This document shows positions 10,733 through 43,529 of a stretch of 43,577 bases of DNA, one piece after another. The translations under genes were made by a program, and so were the position numbers. Each line of letters opens with the position of its first letter. The first letter of the stretch is position 1. Where the stretch lies: positions 1 to 43,577 of the forward strand of contig NZ_BONC01000067.1 of the NCBI RefSeq assembly GCF_016862515.1, given 5' to 3'. The notes below the pieces were generated by a model that saw nothing but the letters and a program-made list of their open reading frames with translations, did no database searches and was not told where the DNA came from. The stretch is from Asanoa iriomotensis. Lineage in GTDB: Bacteria; Actinomycetota; Actinomycetes; Mycobacteriales; Micromonosporaceae.

Positions 10733-12220
10733 ATGAAGCCCGCCATCGATCGCGGACGCATCGTGATGCTCGTCGACAACGGCGTCCACGGCGACTCGCG
10801 GGTCCAGAAGACGGCCGCCTCGGCCGCCGCCGCGGGCTGGGACGTCGTGCTGCTCGGCCGGGGAGCCGCGCAGACCTGGCAGCTCGGTGACGCGCAGGTG
10901 CGCCTGGTGCCCACGCCGTCCCCGCTGGCCAAGGGGTCGCACACCGCCCGCCGGCGCTGGCTGCGGGGTCCGCTGGGCTACCCGCCCAGCGGCATCGCAC
11001 CGATCCGCGCCCAGAAGGTCAAGGCGTGGCAGGCCGACCTGCGCACGCGCCGGGCCGAGGCGACGCTCGCGAAGGCCGGCGGCCTGCGCCCGCGGCTGCT
11101 GGCCGCCGAGTCGGCGCTGGCCAAGGTGACCAGCCGCTGGGTGTCGTTCCGCTACTGGCAGCTCAACCGCAAGCCGCGCACCTTCCACGGCCCCTGGGAC
11201 CGCACGGTGACCCGCATGTGGCAGGCCACCATGGGCGACCGGGCCTGGCGGCGGCTGGCGCCCCACCTGTGGGACTTCGAGCTGGCCTTCGGCCCGGAGA
11301 TCGACAAGCTGAAGCCCGACCTGATCCACGCCAACGACTTCCGCATGCTGGGCGTCGGCGCCCGGGCCGCGCTGCGCGCCCGCGCCGCCGGGCGTGACGT
11401 GAAGCTCGTCTGGGACGCGCACGAGTTCGTGCCGGGCATCCGGCCGCTGCCGCAGAACGCCCGCTGGAACCCGGCGATCCAGGCCCACGAGCGCGAGTAC
11501 GCGCCGTACGCCGACGCCGTGGTGACCGTCTCCGACAACCTCGCCGAACTGCTGCGCAAGGAGCACGGCCTGGCGGTCACGCCGACCGTGGTGCTCAACG
11601 CCCCCGCCGGCCTGTCCGCGGCGGCCGCCGACGCGCCCGACCTGCGCGCGGCGTGCGGGCTCGGTCCGGGCGTGCCGCTGGTCGTCTACAGCGGCGCCGC
11701 GGCTGTCCAGCGCGGCCTCGACATCATGGTCGAGGCGCTGCCGACCCTCGGCGACGTGCACGTGGCCTTCGTGGTCAACGCGCCGACCGAGGCGTACGTG
11801 AGCGGGCTGGTCGCCCGGGCCGAGAAGCTCGGCGTCGCCGACCGGCTGCACGTGCTGCCCTACGTCCCGCACGACCAGGTCGTCCGCTTCCTGTCCAGTG
11901 CCGATGTCGGAATCATCCCGATTCACCACTGGCCCAACCACGAGATCGCGCTGATCACGAAATTCTTCGAGTACGCGCACGCGCGCCTGCCCATGGTCGT
12001 CTCCGACGTGCGCACCATGGCCGAGACCGTCCTCGCCACCGGCAACGGCGAGGTGTTCCGCGCCGAGGACCTCGACGACTTCGTGCGCGCCGTCCGGGCC
12101 GTGCTGGCCGACCCCGCCCGCTACCAGGTCGCCTACGACAAGCCCGACCTGCTCGAGACGTGGACCTGGGAGCGGCAGTTCGCGATCCTCGACGAGACCG
12201 TCTACGCCCGCCTGGCGTGA
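10733..12220 (+). CDS. Glycosyltransferase, GT4-like (paralogue 2 of 3)
   Basis: This 495-residue homologue of the enzymes at 5542 and 13587 has the same landmarks: GRIVMLVDNGVHGDSRVQKT, HANDFRMLGVGARAALRARA, VWDAHEFVPGIRP, TVVLNAPAGL, VVYSGAAAVQRGLDIMVEAL, HVLPYVPHDQVVRFLSSADV and HWPNHEIALITKFFEYAHAR. The start is ATG 10733 with GAGGGGAA eight bases upstream; a GTG at 10715 is in frame but lacks such a site. Its last 400 or so bases are very similar at the DNA level to the third paralogue, which lies in the same orientation about 2.8 kb downstream. The gene stands alone, ending four bases before the convergent PIG-V-like gene. It likely acts on the same glycan as its paralogues with a different donor or acceptor. 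Confidence 0.88.
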   Translation: MKPAIDRGRIVMLVDNGVHGDSRVQKTAASAAAAGWDVVLLGRGAAQTWQLGDAQVRLVPTPSPLAKGSHTARRRWLRGPLGYPPSGIAPIRAQKVKAWQADLRTRRAEATLAKAGGLRPRLLAAESALAKVTSRWVSFRYWQLNRKPRTFHGPWDRTVTRMWQATMGDRAWRRLAPHLWDFELAFGPEIDKLKPDLIHANDFRMLGVGARAALRARAAGRDVKLVWDAHEFVPGIRPLPQNARWNPAIQAHEREYAPYADAVVTVSDNLAELLRKEHGLAVTPTVVLNAPAGLSAAAADAPDLRAACGLGPGVPLVVYSGAAAVQRGLDIMVEALPTLGDVHVAFVVNAPTEAYVSGLVARAEKLGVADRLHVLPYVPHDQVVRFLSSADVGIIPIHHWPNHEIALITKFFEYAHARLPMVVSDVRTMAETVLATGNGEVFRAEDLDDFVRAVRAVLADPARYQVAYDKPDLLETWTWERQFAILDETVYARLA

Positions 12221-12229
12221 CGCGTCACG
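12216..12229. terminator. 14-bp palindrome holding both convergent stop codons
   Basis: CGTGACGCGTCACG is a perfect palindrome. Its left half contains the TGA of the glycosyltransferase (12218-12220) and its right half the reverse TGA of the PIG-V-like gene (12227-12225). It could form a small bidirectional terminator stem, but there is no loop sequence or T-run, so the role is uncertain. Confidence 0.3.
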
Positions 12230-13424
12230 GCGACCACTTCCAGACCAGCGCCAGGTAGGTCCCGTACCAGGCCGAACCGAGGGCGAGTGCCACGAGCACG
12301 ATGACTTTCGTGCTCGTCAGCGCCTTCGACAGCCCGACCGCGACCGGAATCAGCAGCGTGAAGACCGGGATCAGGTAACGGGCCTTGCCCTGCTGGCCGC
12401 CGGCCGCGCCGGCCAGGAAGACCAGCATCACCACGGTGTAGACGACGATCGGCAACGGCGGGCGCTGCACCAGCAACAGCGCGGCGAGCACCACCGCCAC
12501 GAACATCGAGAACACGATCACGTAGAAGGCGAGCATCTCGCCGCGCTGGGTCAGCACCTGGTAGACCGTGCGGACCGTGTCGGGGCCGCCGTCGAAGGAG
12601 ACGTTCCAGCCTTCCTTCTGCATGTAGAAATAGCCGTCCGCCCGGCCGAGTCGGGCGCCGACCCAGGCGAGATAGCCGACGTAGCCGAGCGGGGCCAGGG
12701 CGCCCGCGACCCAGGGGCGCCACCCGCCCCGGCGCCGCACGATCGCGACGAGCGCGCAGATCCCGACGGCGGCGATCAGCGCGACGGCGACCGGCCGGGT
12801 CAGCCCGGCGAGCAGGCACAGCACGCCGGCGGTGAGCCATTGCTCACGCAGCAGCGCGTAGAGGCACCAGGCGGCGAAGGCGGTGAACAGCGACTCGCTG
12901 TAGCCCATGCTCTCGACCAGCGCGTGCGGGATGACGCCCCAGAGGATGGCCAGCAGGATGCCGGTGGTCCGGTTCCACATGTGCGTGCCGACCAGGTAGA
13001 TGCCCCAGGCGGCGGCCAGGCCCGCGAGCCACGCGACGATCACCGCGCCCGCCAGGGAACCGACACCCGGCAGGAAGGTGAAGACCTTGATCAGGGCCGG
13101 GAACGCCGGGAAGAACGCCAGGTTCGAGGGTTTCAGGTCGCCGTCGGGACCGACCGGGATCGTGGCGTCGTAGCCCACGTCGACGATCCTGCGGTAGGAG
13201 GTGGCGTCGAACCGGCCGGCCAGCAGCCAGGAGAGGTCGGTGCCCTGCCGGTGGGCCATCACCCACAGGACCAGGATCCCGAAGGCCCGGACGATCAGGT
13301 AGCCGATGACCGCGGGCGCGGCGGCCGACAGGGCCGAGCGGGCTCGGTCGCGCCAGGATCGGGTGGGCTGCGTCTCGTCCGCCGCCTCGCCCGTGCCCGT
13401 GTCTACTGTCGTCAGTGCGCCCAT
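12225..13424 (-). CDS. PIG-V-like (GT76-type) polytopic mannosyltransferase
   Basis: This 399-residue integral membrane protein has about ten hydrophobic segments. It probably uses polyprenyl-phosphate-linked sugar on the outer face of the membrane. The N-terminal loop carries the family pattern: RFDATSYRRIVDVGYDATIP, then SNLAFFPAFPALIKVF, with an acidic residue after TM1 and the FFPxxP motif. LLAGLTRPVAVALI and a C-terminal QQGKARYLIPVFTLLIPVAV complete the resemblance to actinobacterial PIG-V homologues. The start is ATG 13424. The frame stays open upstream, including a PDGI(R/P) pentapeptide repeat, but codon use there is not coding-like. It sits antisense between two direct GT4 paralogues. 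Mannose as the sugar is inferred from the family. Confidence 0.8.
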   Translation of the reverse strand: MGALTTVDTGTGEAADETQPTRSWRDRARSALSAAAPAVIGYLIVRAFGILVLWVMAHRQGTDLSWLLAGRFDATSYRRIVDVGYDATIPVGPDGDLKPSNLAFFPAFPALIKVFTFLPGVGSLAGAVIVAWLAGLAAAWGIYLVGTHMWNRTTGILLAILWGVIPHALVESMGYSESLFTAFAAWCLYALLREQWLTAGVLCLLAGLTRPVAVALIAAVGICALVAIVRRRGGWRPWVAGALAPLGYVGYLAWVGARLGRADGYFYMQKEGWNVSFDGGPDTVRTVYQVLTQRGEMLAFYVIVFSMFVAVVLAALLLVQRPPLPIVVYTVVMLVFLAGAAGGQQGKARYLIPVFTLLIPVAVGLSKALTSTKVIVLVALALGSAWYGTYLALVWKWSP

Positions 13425-38385: not shown

Positions 38386-40986
38386 TCAACTCGGTGGCAT
38401 CCCCATCTCCTTCTCGATCCGCTCGGCCTCCTCGTTCCTGCCGAGATTGCGCAGGTCGGCGGCGAGATTCCGGGCCGACGAGAGGGTGTTGGGATGGTCG
38501 TCGCCGAGCACCCGACGCCGGCGCGTGAGGGTGTCCTCGTCGAGCCGCCGTGCCTGCTCGTACTCGCCGAAGTGCGCGAGCACGATGGCGAGGTTGTTGG
38601 CCGACGCGAGGGTGCTGCGGTGGTCGACGCCGAGCACCCGACGCCGGCGTTCCAAGGTGTCCTCGTCGAGTTGCCGGGCCCGCTGGTAGTCGCCCAGGTG
38701 GGTGAGCACGGCGGCGAGGTTGTTGGCGGAGTTGAGCGTGTCCGGGTGTTCGACGCCGAGGATCCGGCCGCGGCGCGCCAGGGTGTCCTCGTCGAGCTGC
38801 CGCGCCCGCTCGTGTTCGCCCAGGTTGGTCAGGTCGACGGCGAGGTTGCTGGCGGAGTTGAGCGTGTCCGGGTGGTCGTCCCCGAGGATGCGTCGCCGGC
38901 GGGCCAGCGTGTCCTCGTCGAGCTGGCGCGCCCGCTCGCGCTCGCCGGTCTGCGTCAGGTCGAAGGCGAGGTTGTGCGCGGCGCTGAGCGTGTCGGGGTG
39001 GTCCTCGCCGAGGACCCGGCGGCGCCGCGCGAGCGTGTCCTCACCGAGCTGCCGCGCGCGCTCGAACTCACCCAGGTCCCGCAGGTCGTTGGCCAGGTTG
39101 TTGGCCGTGCCGAGGGTGTTGCGGTCGTCGTCACCGAAGATCCGCCGGCGGCGGGCCAGCGCGTCCTCGTTGAGCGTGCGCGCCTTGTCGGGCGCGCCGG
39201 ACAGCCGGTACGCGTAGGCGAGCGTGTCCGCACCCAGCAGGCTCGAGGAGTGGTCGGGGCCGAGGCTGTCGGTCCAGGCGGCGTACAGGTGCTCGGCCAG
39301 CGGGAGGGCCGTGCGGGCGTCGCCGCGGGCGAGCAGGTGCCACACCGCGTGATGGGCGAGCCAGTGCACCTCGGGGCTGCGGCTGCTGCCCGGGTCGGCG
39401 GCGAGGACGTGCGGGAGCAGCTGGCTCCACCGCGGCCACCCGGCGGGGTCGCGCCCGTTGTCGGGTCGGGCCGCGATGAGGAGCTGCTCCACAGTGGCGC
39501 GGTGCGCGGCGGCGTCGGGGTCGGCGTCGCGCAGGATGGCCTGGGTCAGGCGGTGGAGCTGCACGCCACCGTCCAATGTGCGGGCCAGGCCGTAGCGGGT
39601 CAACCGGCCGGCGGCGCGTTCGAGCGCGATCCCGCTGCCGGCCGCGGCGGCCAGCTCGGCCGGGAGCAGCCGGTCGGTCGTGTCGCGGAACAGGTCCAGC
39701 GGGATGGGTTCGGGTGCCATGTGTGCGCACAGGATCAACAGCTGCGCCGCGACGGGGTCGTCGGCGGCGAGGCGTTTCGCGGCGACGGTGACCGCGGCCG
39801 CGAGCGGCACCTGGTAGCCGGCCGGTGGTGGGTCGCTGGCGAGCAGGTCCGCGGCGTTCTTGGCCAGCGCGGACAGGAATACGTCGACGGGTACGCCGGT
39901 CTCCGCGATCAGGTCGCCGGCCTGCGCGACCGCGAGGGGCAGGTCGCCGAGCGCGTCGGCCAAGCGGTCGGCGTCCGCGGCGGACAGCTGCGGCAGCGTG
40001 GCACGCAGCAGCGCGGTCGACTCCGTGCGGGCGAACACGTCGACCCCGACCGACTGCGCGACACCTGACCACAGCGGGCTGCGGGAGGTCACCAGGACGT
40101 GCGTCGTGCCGCCCGGCAGCCACGGGCGGACCGCCTCGCGGGACTCCGCGTTGTCGAAGATCAGCAGGCTCCGGTCGGCGGAACGCAGGTGGGCCAGGGC
40201 CGCGGCGACCGAGGACGTGACGCCGCCGTCGGGCGGTGCGAGCCCCGCGGCGACCGCGAGCGCCGCGAGTTGCTCGGCGACGAGGTCGGCCTGCTCGGCG
40301 GCGATCCACCACACCAGCTCGTACTCGTTGGCGAACCGGTAGGCGTACTCGATCGCGAGCTGGGTCTTGCCGACACCGCCCATGCCCTGGAGCGCCTGCA
40401 CGACGATCGGGCTGCCGGCGAGCAGTCCGTCGCGCAGGTCGACGATCATGCGGTCGCGGCCGGTGAACGCCGGGTTGCGGGGCGGCAGGTTCCACACGCG
40501 CGGCAGCGACCCGGGCAACCGCGGACCCGTGCCACGGTTTGCCACCGGCGGCGCCGCCGTCCCTGGGAACCCTGGGCGCCCGCCCGGACGCCGCGCCCCG
40601 CCGACCGCGGCCAGCAACCGGCGGCGGGCCTCCTCCTCGGGGACGCCGAACAGGTCGACGCTGAGCAGCGGCTGGTAGAGCTGCGGCGGCGTCACGCTCT
40701 CTATCCGCACCGGCAGCACCCGCTTGCGGGTCGGGCCGCGGTCCGCGAGCAGCGCAGTCAGCTCCGGCGAGGTGAACCGTTGCGGCTCGAAGTAGGCCGG
40801 CGAGAACAGCGCGACCATCCGGTCGGCCTGCTCGAGCGCGTCGCGCATCTTCTCGACGAAGTTCTCACCGACCTCCCAGTCCCAGAGGTCGAGCTCGACG
40901 GAGTAGCCCGCCTCGGTCAGCTCCCAGGCGACCCATTCCGCCCAGGACCGGTCGCGGCCCGCATGACTGATGAACAAATCGGTCAC
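38386..40986 (-). CDS. TIR - NB-ARC - TPR protein (STAND family)
   Basis: This 866-residue signal-transduction ATPase has a TIR domain at residues 1-125: [40 protein letters not shown], and [11 protein letters not shown], with Glu75 in the place of the NADase catalytic Glu. An NB-ARC ATPase follows from [18 protein letters not shown], with Walker [10 protein letters not shown] (201-209), Walker [10 protein letters not shown], the sensor [10 protein letters not shown] and [14 protein letters not shown]. The C-terminus (575-866) is seven 42-residue TPR repeats of the kinesin-light-chain type. Bacterial TIR-STAND proteins can deplete NAD when triggered by phage or other ligands; related proteins also accompany FxSxx-COOH peptide systems, which are absent here. 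GTG 40986 has a weak CACAGT six bases upstream, perhaps leaderless. It stands alone between metabolic genes. Confidence 0.9.
38389..39264 (-). repeat. Seven in-frame 126-bp TPR repeats
   Basis: The 3' third of the TIR gene consists of seven 126-bp units (the last slightly short), each opening with a form of LGDDHPDTL and containing NNLA and [14 protein letters not shown]. Units 3-6 are most alike. Repeats of this kind can gain or lose copies by recombination, changing the predicted ligand-binding surface. Confidence 0.85.
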
Positions 40987-41025: not shown

Positions 41026-42075
41026 CTAGTTAGGCAGGTTGAGGAGACGGCGGGCGTTGCCGGCGTAGACCTGGGCCAGCACGTCCGGCGGCAGGTCGAC
41101 GGCGGAGATGTCCCAGCGGCCCTGTGGTGGCACGCGGGCGCCCGGGGCGTAGGGGAAGCATTCGTCGGCGGTTTCGAGGAAGCGCCAGTAGATCTCGTAC
41201 GCCTCCCGGGACGGTGGGAACGCGTCCGAGCCGAACAGGACCCGGTCGGGGTGGTCGACGATCAGGCGGCGGGTGGCGCGGGGTTGGCGGCCCAGCTCGG
41301 CGAGGCGGCCGCCGAGGTCGACGTGGAAGTTGGAGTGGCGGGTCAGCATGCCGTCGACCCAGGCCAGGTCCTCGGCGGCGCAGCCGACGTGTGCACCGAC
41401 GAACGTCGTGCCGGGTGCGCCGGCGACCACCGCGTCCAGCGCCGTCATCAGACGGTCGAAGGTGGGGTAGCCGGGTGCGCCGAACCACCAGCCGGGGTTC
41501 TCGGCCAGTTCCTCCAGGCGCTCGTTGGTCGCATCGAGCGGGCCGAAGAAGGCGATCGGGTCCGCGGTGTGGATCAGGATCGGCAGGCCCAGCTCCCCCG
41601 CCGCCGCGAACACGTCGAACAGGCGAGGGTCATCTGGTAGGACCTTTTCGCCGCGGGCGTCCGTGATGGTCAGACCGAGGTCCTTCCAGACCTTGACACC
41701 GCGAGCGCCGGCGTCGCGGGCGCGGCGCAGGGCCGCGATCAGGGCGCCGGTCGGGTCCGGGCCGTGCAGCAGTGACCAGTCGAGGTGGCAGAAGGTCACG
41801 AACCTGTCCGGGTACGGGCTGTCGAAGCGAGCGATGTTCGCGTCCAGCTCGGCGTCCCAGCGGCCGTCGAGGTTGACGATCGTGCGGACGCCGACCTGGT
41901 CCATGAGCTCGACCAGCGCCGGCACGTCGGGCACGAGCCAGTCCCCGCCGCCGAGCCACCGGCCCAGGTGGTTGTGCACGTCGACGACCGGCACCGCCGG
42001 CCGCGGCACGCGGGTCTCCGGACGGCGAATCGAAGCCACCGGGGTGTAGTCACGAAGGCGCAGGTCGTCAATCAT
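41026..42075 (-). CDS. Amidohydrolase family 2 (TIM-barrel metal hydrolase)
   Basis: This 349-residue protein of the amidohydrolase_2 group has VVDVHNHLGRW (metal-binding His34 and His36), GARGVKVWKDLG, LPILIHTADP (third His), TFVGAHVGC (fourth His) and VLFGSDAFPPSREAYEIYW (catalytic Asp). Relatives hydrolyse lactones or decarboxylate aromatic acids. It starts MIDDLRLRDY at ATG 42075, which overlaps the stop of the third micro-ORF by ATGA. No Shine-Dalgarno is evident, so translation may depend on ribosomes arriving from the repeats. Pairing with the GH4 glycosidase suggests hydrolysis of a sugar lactone or related product, though that is inference. The TIR gene starts 39 bases beyond its stop. 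Confidence 0.87.
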   Translation of the reverse strand: MIDDLRLRDYTPVASIRRPETRVPRPAVPVVDVHNHLGRWLGGGDWLVPDVPALVELMDQVGVRTIVNLDGRWDAELDANIARFDSPYPDRFVTFCHLDWSLLHGPDPTGALIAALRRARDAGARGVKVWKDLGLTITDARGEKVLPDDPRLFDVFAAAGELGLPILIHTADPIAFFGPLDATNERLEELAENPGWWFGAPGYPTFDRLMTALDAVVAGAPGTTFVGAHVGCAAEDLAWVDGMLTRHSNFHVDLGGRLAELGRQPRATRRLIVDHPDRVLFGSDAFPPSREAYEIYWRFLETADECFPYAPGARVPPQGRWDISAVDLPPDVLAQVYAGNARRLLNLPN

Positions 42076-42131
42076 GCGCGAAGCCCCTCAGACAGCAAGT
42101 CAACGCGCGCCGCAGTCAGGTCGCCGATCAT
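42072..42131 (-). CDS. Micro-ORF 3 of the repeat chain (19 codons)
   Basis: ATG 42131 to TGA 42074-42072 encodes MIGDLTAARVDLLSEGLRA. The start overlaps the stop of micro-ORF 2 and the stop overlaps the start of the amidohydrolase, both by ATGA. Its first residues MIGDL resemble the amidohydrolase start MIDDL. Confidence 0.5.
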   Translation of the reverse strand: MIGDLTAARVDLLSEGLRA

Positions 42132-42187
42132 CCCCGGAGCCCCTCAGACAGCAGGTCAACGCGCGCCGCAGCCAGATAGGCGATCAT
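42128..42187 (-). CDS. Micro-ORF 2 of the repeat chain (19 codons)
   Basis: ATG 42187 to TGA 42130-42128 encodes MIAYLAAARVDLLSEGLRG, joined to both neighbours by ATGA overlaps. Most of the peptide is shared with the other two. Confidence 0.5.
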   Translation of the reverse strand: MIAYLAAARVDLLSEGLRG

Positions 42188-42243
42188 CCCCGGAGCCCCT
42201 CAGACAGCAAGTCAACGCGCGCCGCAACCAGATCGCCGATCAT
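42184..42243 (-). CDS. Micro-ORF 1 of the repeat chain (19 codons)
   Basis: ATG 42243 to TGA 42186-42184 encodes MIGDLVAARVDLLSEGLRG. Its ATG overlaps the GH4 stop by ATGA. The tail is similar to the GH4 C-terminus ALTAAHGNQLHEALRG. Confidence 0.5.
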   Translation of the reverse strand: MIGDLVAARVDLLSEGLRG

Positions 42244-43529
42244 CCCCGGAGCGCCTCGTGCAGCTGGTTGCCGTGCGCCGCGGTGAGGGCGTCGCACAGG
42301 TCCCAGATCGCGTCGACCGTCAGGGAGGCGGCGGTGTTCGGGTCGACCATGGCGGCCTGGCGGACCAGCCGTGGGTCGCCGGTGACGGCGGCCGCCACCG
42401 TCAGTTCGCCGACGCTGACGTAGGGGCGGTTGACCGCCGCGAGCTGTGGTGGCAGGTCGCCGGCCGGCTCAGGGCTCGCGCCGCTCGCGTCGACGATCGT
42501 CGCCACCTCGACCGCGAAGCCGGCCGGCAGGTTTCCGATCAAACCGTCGTTGGCCACGTTGGCGATGATCCGGCGCGGCGTGCCGGTGAGCATGCTGTGG
42601 ATCACCTGCGGTGCGTACTCGACGGTCTCGCGGCTCAGGTCGATCGGCCCCGTGTGGTCGTCGCGGATGGCGGCGAAGGTAGAAAGGTTGTCCTCGCTGA
42701 CCCGCAGATAGTCGCCGACGGGAATGCGCAGCCGGGCTATTTCTTCGTCGTGGTGCAGGTACCACGGGACGTACTCCGCGGAATGCTCGCTCGTCTCGGT
42801 CGGGTAGTAGCCGAGCCGCCGGTACATGTCGACCCGCACGCGCCGGCGCAGCTCCGGGCCGGCGTCGATCGCGGCGTCCAGCAACGGGTAGAGGTCGGTG
42901 CCGTCGCGTTCCCAGCGCAGGATCCAGGCCTGGTGGTTGACGCCCGCGCTGTCGAACGTGACATCCCCGAACGGCACGCCGACCAGGTCGCACAGGCCGC
43001 GGACCGTCCAGTGGACCGAGTGGCACAGCCCCAGGACCTTGAGCCGCGGCGCCACCCGGGCCAGGTATGTGACGTTCATGGCCATCGGGTTGGTGTAGTT
43101 GAGCAGCCACGCGTCCGGGCACAGCTCGGCCATGTCGGCGGCGATGCCGGCGAGCACCGGGAACGTGCGCAGACCGCGGAAGATGCCGCCGATGCCGATC
43201 GTGTCGCCGATCGTCTGGCGCAGGCCGAACCGGGCCGGCACGTCGAAGTCGACGCGGGTGGCCGCGTACATGCCGACCTGGATGGTGTTGATGACGAAGT
43301 CGGCTCCGTCCAGGGCTTTCCGGCGGTCGGGCGTCGCGACGATCTCGGGCCGGACGCCGTGCGCGTCGGCGACGCGCCGGGCCAGCATCGCCGCTGTGGC
43401 AAGCCGCTCCTGGTCGATGTCGTGCAGGACGATCCGCGCACCGGCCAGCTCCGGGAAGCCGAGGATGTCCGTGAGCAGCTCACGGGTGAAGACGACGCTG
43501 CCCGCGCCGAGGAAAACGATGGCGGTCAA
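42240..43529 (-). CDS. Glycoside hydrolase family 4 (alpha-galactosidase/glucuronidase-like)
   Basis: This 429-residue NAD- and Mn-dependent glycosidase of family GH4 cleaves by oxidation at C3 and elimination. The Rossmann start is IVFLGAGSVVF (residues 4-14). QTIGDTIGIGG (105-115), NYTNPMAMNV (144-153), Cys169 in GLCHS and His199 in GVNHQAW are the metal and catalytic sites. NLPAGFAVEVATIVDASG and a long C-terminal helix region complete the fold. It starts with TTG 43529, eight bases after a clear AGGAGG. GH4 members act on alpha-galactosides, alpha-glucuronides or phosphorylated disaccharides; FFDVPARFGL-type segments do not settle which. Its 3' end has been copied three times into the gap before the amidohydrolase gene. 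Confidence 0.9.
   Translation of the reverse strand: MTAIVFLGAGSVVFTRELLTDILGFPELAGARIVLHDIDQERLATAAMLARRVADAHGVRPEIVATPDRRKALDGADFVINTIQVGMYAATRVDFDVPARFGLRQTIGDTIGIGGIFRGLRTFPVLAGIAADMAELCPDAWLLNYTNPMAMNVTYLARVAPRLKVLGLCHSVHWTVRGLCDLVGVPFGDVTFDSAGVNHQAWILRWERDGTDLYPLLDAAIDAGPELRRRVRVDMYRRLGYYPTETSEHSAEYVPWYLHHDEEIARLRIPVGDYLRVSEDNLSTFAAIRDDHTGPIDLSRETVEYAPQVIHSMLTGTPRRIIANVANDGLIGNLPAGFAVEVATIVDASGASPEPAGDLPPQLAAVNRPYVSVGELTVAAAVTGDPRLVRQAAMVDPNTAASLTVDAIWDLCDALTAAHGNQLHEALRG

Follow-up and report, generated by a model that had tools for sequence, protein, structure and literature searches.

How might the junction between two overlapping genes be lengthened by 168 bp without the genes being parted in translation? 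The question is raised by a tandem array of three 56-bp units in the soil bacterium Asanoa iriomotensis, lying between a gene for a GH4 family glycosidase and an amidohydrolase gene on contig NZ_BONC01000067.1 (assembly GCF_016862515.1). The 43,577 nucleotides of this contig were analysed as a whole and are called the window below. On balance, we think it probable that the array is a duplication of the gene junction which preserved coupling and passes ribosomes on by termination and reinitiation.

The preliminary description, made from the letters alone, reported three 56-bp units, each with an open reading frame (ORF) for 19 residues, linked by ATG starts overlapping TGA stops and free of indels. 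All of this was borne out, with the array located on the minus strand (Table 1). Every junction is ATGA, each micro-ORF has 19 codons, and the units share 48-52 of 56 bases pairwise with no indel; three is the number of units as assembled, and further copies could have collapsed in the assembly. Nine columns vary across the three units, three at each codon position, and the array obtained a Tandem Repeats Finder score of 303. Within the draft genome of 8.57 Mb, three ATGA at 56-bp spacing were encountered at a single locus, and a control with the pattern reversed gave no match (0). Because 56 is 2 modulo 3, an ORF chain follows automatically once 56 bp spanning an ATGA junction are duplicated, and is no second, independent coincidence beside the duplication.

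Table 1. Features of the GH4/amidohydrolase junction in the window (SD, Shine-Dalgarno)
Feature	Coordinates	Strand	Support and remarks
GH4 family glycosidase gene, alpha-galactosidase-like (upstream partner)	42240..43529	-	PF02056 6.8e-59, PF11975 1.6e-50, NF011657 2.6e-164; TTG start; the repeat tail occurs first as the gene's own 3' end
Unit 1, 56 bp	42188..42243	-	micro-ORF MIGDLVAARVDLLSEGLRG, ATG at 42243
Unit 2, 56 bp	42132..42187	-	micro-ORF MIAYLAAARVDLLSEGLRG, ATG at 42187
Unit 3, 56 bp	42076..42131	-	micro-ORF MIGDLTAARVDLLSEGLRA, ATG at 42131
ATGA junction GH4 / unit 1	42240..42243	-	
ATGA junction unit 1 / unit 2	42184..42187	-	
ATGA junction unit 2 / unit 3	42128..42131	-	
ATGA junction unit 3 / amidohydrolase	42072..42075	-	
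GAGGGG SD-like site, serves unit 2	42196..42201	-	sequence; anti-SD duplex energy -6.9
GAGGGG SD-like site, serves unit 3	42140..42145	-	sequence; anti-SD duplex energy
GAGGGG SD-like site, serves amidohydrolase	42084..42089	-	sequence; anti-SD duplex energy
Amidohydrolase (Amidohydro_2) gene (downstream partner)	41026..42075	-	PF04909 9.6e-23; similar to the repeat head over its first 15 bases

As judged from alignments, the unit is a locally duplicated GH4/amidohydrolase junction with an amidohydrolase-like head and a GH4 tail, an origin already proposed in the preliminary description. Its last 41 bases matched the end of the adjoining GH4 gene at 29 positions and that of a congener (G002) at 30, five other GH4 ends giving 21-29 of 41. 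Its first 15 bases agreed with the amidohydrolase start at 12 positions for the consensus and 13 for unit 3. The best switch from head to tail was placed at base 15-16, with 41-42 of 56 bases matched versus 37-38 when a GH4 tail by itself is aligned, whether its own or that of G002. At this switch point the GH4 tail (GACGCCCT) and the amidohydrolase head (GACGACCT) share seven of eight bases and lie exactly 56 bp apart, so that slippage between them would yield the observed unit. The amidohydrolase gene is thus the likely donor of the head. Two points tell against this assignment: four of the 12-13 matched bases are the ATGA itself, and the start of a PfkB kinase gene in another congener (G005, see below) matches the head nearly as well (11-12 of 15).

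The following course of events may be proposed. In this Asanoa lineage, a 56-bp segment across the start-stop overlap would have undergone tandem duplication, probably through slippage between the short matches in the GH4 tail and the amidohydrolase head. Every copy leaves its head in frame with the amidohydrolase and its tail in frame with GH4, again because of the 2-modulo-3 length, and with both frames retained forms a complete hand-over module composed of SD-like site, ATG and overlapping TGA. A ribosome ending GH4 could then restart at successive ATGAs and reach the amidohydrolase gene. In experiments on E. coli and Haloferax, hardly any reinitiation was left once a gap of about 20-38 nt separated stop and start; in two E. 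coli pairs, the final 15 nt of the upstream gene were enough for it (PMC10666635). Given this gap effect, a plain 168-bp insertion should uncouple the amidohydrolase gene, whereas ATGA modules in a chain could leave it coupled. The insertion, otherwise expected to break coupling, may thereby have been tolerated, as reinitiation experiments in other organisms suggest. Among overlapping pairs of Haloferax, nine of nine were strictly coupled (PMC6728339), all these comparison pairs coming from E. coli and Haloferax and not from actinobacteria. The micro-peptides would be by-products, and the array was most likely kept as doing little harm.

The relay of terminating ribosomes had been suggested beforehand, together with a tuning of the amidohydrolase level by copy number. 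The layout fits a relay, each step offering an ATGA and an SD-like site, and the support is anatomical in nature; from this anatomy and the published reinitiation data, a relay appears the likeliest mode of action. Tuning by copy number is put forward as a proposal: if the efficiency of hand-over at each ATGA is below one, serial units would provide a ready dial for protein ratios. Such duplication would also be a simple way for an operon junction to lengthen with its start-stop overlap intact.

Relatives of the host were compared at the same gene pair using five Asanoa genomes (G001-G005, one genome per species). The amidohydrolase was present in all five, with 84-86% identity, and the 56-bp array was absent from all five. 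A count of units in relatives, as advocated in the preliminary description, recovered the gene pair in G002, G003 and G004 and no units: GH4 and amidohydrolase are joined directly by ATGA in the first two and by TGATG in the third. Since these three congeners hold both genes and no unit, the array is dispensable. In G005, a PfkB kinase gene (PF00294) is inserted between GH4 and amidohydrolase, an arrangement likewise found in two Actinoplanes records (L023 and L025). In G001 (L014:1427-1501), an internal deletion has left of GH4 its first 19 and last five codons, a 24-codon mini-ORF which is preceded by AAGGAG and overlaps the amidohydrolase start by TGATG; this mini-ORF is a natural short upstream ORF created by deletion. 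Altogether, an upstream ORF that codon-position GC marks as coding-like overlaps the amidohydrolase gene in eight of the 12 loci checked. At some of these loci it is GH4, at others PfkB; in the window and G001 the overlap is with short ORFs. With partners differing in this way, the overlap is old and the upstream partner changes. One gene pair thus displays a natural series of no unit, three units, a 24-codon scar and a whole inserted gene.

Arrays of this kind were searched for throughout the Micromonosporaceae by fixed-spacing scans. Three ATGA at 56-bp spacing were matched in 26 of 354 family genomes (43 places) and at 55-bp spacing in 17 of 354; spacings of 53, 52, 59 and 58 bp were scanned in 67 genomes of one genus (g29), which includes records named Actinoplanes and Paractinoplanes. 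Junction arrays were defined by a unit identity of at least 70%, and coding-like ORFs on both sides, one with its stop in the first ATGA and one with its start at the last; the 56-bp locus set leaves out one place with a 28-bp repeat (G033:C53), and the chain-scan repeats L132, L164, L199 and L202 were not counted. Besides the window, 13 junction arrays were obtained (four of six loci at 53 bp, four of 15 at 56 bp and five of eight at 59 bp). Twelve belong to genus g29 and one (L234) to another genus, a distribution reflecting the genomes searched.

All 26 proteins flanking these arrays displayed Pfam matches. The pairs are CobD/CbiB with a CobB/CobQ-type protein, CheR with CheW, histidine kinase with response regulator, FecCD permease with ABC ATPase, ABC ATPase with ABC-2 permease (twice), an FMO-like protein with an alpha/beta hydrolase, two acyl-CoA dehydrogenases, acyl-CoA dehydrogenase with an AMP-binding enzyme, a luciferase-like protein with a CoA-transferase, DUF5682 with VWA_CoxE, ROK with ABC ATPase, and glycosyltransferase with SIS. 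In nine arrays, a class assigned by reading alignments, the unit copies the upstream gene's end, the downstream gene's start or the two together (L224, L231, L233, L234, L305, L307, L309, L334 and L337). Three others (L330, L335 and L339) resemble start-codon elements instead of junction copies, and L303 was left unassigned. For all 13 gene pairs, the anatomy is of the same kind as in the window, and a relay function would be attributed by analogy. As far as we have seen, the recurrence of apparently locally made junction arrays within one family is new. Recurrence at partner genes, such as the CobD/CbiB and CobB/CobQ-type pair, CheR and CheW or ABC transporter subunits, lets selection on coupling be tested.

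Several other repeats near gene starts and junctions were recorded during these scans. Start-codon elements of type ATGAGCGAGYGCACCGAGCG or ATGAGCGCGAGGAGTGAGC occur in tandem at gene starts at three places of one genome (L355, L356 and L357, G091), and further ones in L335 (G201), L339 (G187), L241 (G290), L239 (G236) and L243 (G040); they could represent a dispersed, MIRU-like family in Micromonosporaceae, MIRUs being the mycobacterial interspersed repetitive units. A 74-bp stretch in A. iriomotensis itself (L143:4188-4265, minus strand of C3) opens with ATGAGCGAGCGCAGCGAG and runs to an ATGA where a 341-codon ORF starts; this ORF has no Pfam match and begins with the same bases as the stretch. 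Its motif is unique in 2.04 Mb of this genome and resembles the start-codon elements of relatives. Downstream of a peptide deformylase gene (PF01327), the gene's 3' end recurs in decaying copies with period 107 and TTGA at the joins (L164, about 12150-12440, minus strand of C1 in the same genome). A Tandem Repeats Finder scan of the 2.04 Mb pointed to repeats close to coding-like junctions at three further places (L130, L171 and L204).

Shine-Dalgarno-like sites at the relayed starts surpassed the upstream gene's average in strength in 14 of 14 arrays (mean -9.3 over 32 sites versus -3.3). A number of observations weigh against the relay and the history proposed for it. Ordinary ATGA junctions average -7.2 (155 others in the same genome) and the -6.9 of the window is typical of them; SD strength was consequently rejected as a special feature of the window. 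Overlap does not always entail coupling, since three of five E. coli overlapping pairs were strongly coupled, one reached about 60% and one (bioBF) was uncoupled (PMC6728339). No overlapping coding ORF was detected upstream of the amidohydrolase gene in two of 12 relatives (L112 and L113), and the gene tree does not resolve Asanoa, hence neither the order of gains and losses. Finally, a neutral simulation preserved the chain in 42-53% of runs, and chain survival was rejected as evidence of selection or use.

The last result leads to the strongest rival, a purely mutational by-product, to which we give slightly less than an even chance. In-phase matches between tails and heads would make slippage at ATGA junctions mostly 2 modulo 3 in length, ORF chains would follow, and the ribosome would have no part in keeping the arrays. 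The evidence lies in the phase of the periods. Junction arrays accounted for 13 of 29 loci at 2-modulo-3 periods and for none of 14 at three 1-modulo-3 periods, both classes having been counted by hand, per locus (Fisher P = 0.003); in genus g29 alone, the figures were 12 of 24 and 0 of 14 (P = 0.001). Away from coding/coding junctions, the same scans recovered 16 loci at 2 modulo 3 and 14 at 1 modulo 3, against 13 and none at junctions, which counts against this rival. Yet, microhomology at ordinary junctions is itself biased. A control over 2.04 Mb of the A. iriomotensis genome comprised 156 ATGA among 330 coding-like NTGA junctions, and tail/head matches at these 156 were distributed 184:77:49 (6-mers) and 19:9:2 (8-mers) over periods of 2, 0 and 1 modulo 3. 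With such odds, zero 1-modulo-3 arrays has P = 0.05-0.27 for the 13 arrays and 0.12-0.41 for the nine junction-made ones. In-phase microhomology could account for most of the phase bias, which is accordingly weakened as proof of selection, and selection for an unbroken chain is possible. The 0-modulo-3 class offered no clean control: matches from in-frame coding spacing overwhelmed the period-57 scan (223 of 354 genomes), and among 10 repeat-like stretches picked by eye in g29, two arrays lay between coding-like ORFs, both of the start-codon element type. The mutational explanation presupposes duplication driven by microhomology, which was examined for the window only. It is compatible with the relay, for it addresses the existence of the arrays and not the behaviour of ribosomes on them.

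A bolder version of the coupling hypothesis holds that Micromonosporaceae repeatedly duplicate operon junctions and that only chain-preserving duplications survive, as selection demands uninterrupted hand-over, the arrays acting as natural, evolvable couplers of translation whose copy number could reset the ratio of the two operon products. We regard it as doubtful.

Functional peptides, or a leader that senses translation, were suggested by the open, near-identical 19-residue micro-ORFs, the former also in the preliminary description. Over the 14 arrays, no peptide constraint was detected: 57 of 83 changes between units were nonsynonymous versus 59.9 expected (P = 0.46), and in the window unit 2 carries the changes G3A, D4Y and V6A relative to unit 1. 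The array RNA folded no better than shuffles (z = +1.7) and had no Rfam match at gathering scores. Tiny peptides therefore found no support, and we consider either role very improbable. Equally little credence is given to a promoter or other transcription signal for the amidohydrolase gene. Such a role has a precedent in the MIRU-containing senX3-regX3 intergenic region, which can drive senX3-independent regX3 expression (PMC4213456), but neither a sigma-70-like promoter nor a terminator-like site was found in 41900-42400, other promoter types being outside that scan.

Insertion of a MIRU-like mobile element at the ATGA junction, followed by amplification, would account for the layout as well: MIRUs, apparently mobile, insert at start codons and are coupled there at -4 nt (PMC12548453), and repeated start-codon elements of similar look exist in relatives (L335, L339, L330, L357 and L291). 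The array unit, however, is confined to one locus. Sequence search revealed no second copy in its own genome (remaining matches with E of at least 0.12), and of 300 family genomes searched the array was found in this one only, being absent from the other 299. Four weak family matches (30-70 bp) were dropped, for they had no GH4 match and no ATGA triple or tandem repeat nearby. The unit tail, moreover, is GH4 sequence (29-30 of 41 bases), and a mobile origin seems highly unlikely. Least credible of all is an assembly artefact: the genome is a draft of 187 contigs and the array lies 1.3 kb from a contig end, but its copies differ at nine columns and hence are not one misassembled copy.

Elsewhere in the window, a tandem repeat of 126/252 bp was observed at 38453-39265, inside the minus-strand gene 38386-40986, whose product we take from its translation to be a TIR/NB-ARC protein with tetratricopeptide repeats.

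How does the array compare with known systems? It had been presented as a possibly undescribed mode of tuning coupled translation, which is too strong since mycobacterial MIRUs, themselves short repeats, already carry micro-ORFs that are coupled to the gene after them at -4 nt (PMC12548453). Both are tandem units of similar size between two genes (three of 56 bp here, within a range of about 40-100 bp), and the window micro-ORFs overlap the next start by 4 nt at four ATGA junctions. The senX3-regX3 region holds two 77-bp and one 53-bp MIRU in one strain and three 77-bp MIRUs in another (PMC4213456); 77 and 53 are both 2 modulo 3, as is 56. Yet MIRUs are dispersed, with 41 chromosomal locations in M. 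tuberculosis H37Rv (PMC2734929), and appear mobile (PMC12548453), whereas the window unit occurs at one locus and was apparently built from its own flanking genes (GH4 29-30 of 41 bases, amidohydrolase 12-13 of 15).

Other systems share single traits with the array. Termination-reinitiation pairs display the ATGA overlap, an SD-like site within the upstream ORF and a marked dependence on overlap or a very short gap (PMC10666635 and PMC6728339), and a stop-start overlap (ATGA or TGATG) is present at window and congener junctions; the cases met in these sources involve one junction between two genes, whereas the window has four in series through micro-ORFs. At rnc-fpg1 of M. tuberculosis (VNTR3239), repeats likewise expand a junction (279-358 bp versus 1-54 bp in other mycobacteria) and their length goes with mRNA level, but no ATGA chain is described in the available part of that paper, unlike in the window (PMC2734929). 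In upstream ORFs and bicistronic designs, a short ORF may hand the ribosome to the next gene (PMC12548453); those of the window differ by standing between two full genes, in tandem copies. A literature search over titles and abstract openings, with few subscription journals, returned no tandem ATGA junction array outside mycobacteria among the matches listed. The array is an unusual but explicable structure and one of a recurring class; on the best reading of its sequence, it shares the layout of mycobacterial MIRUs but arose locally.
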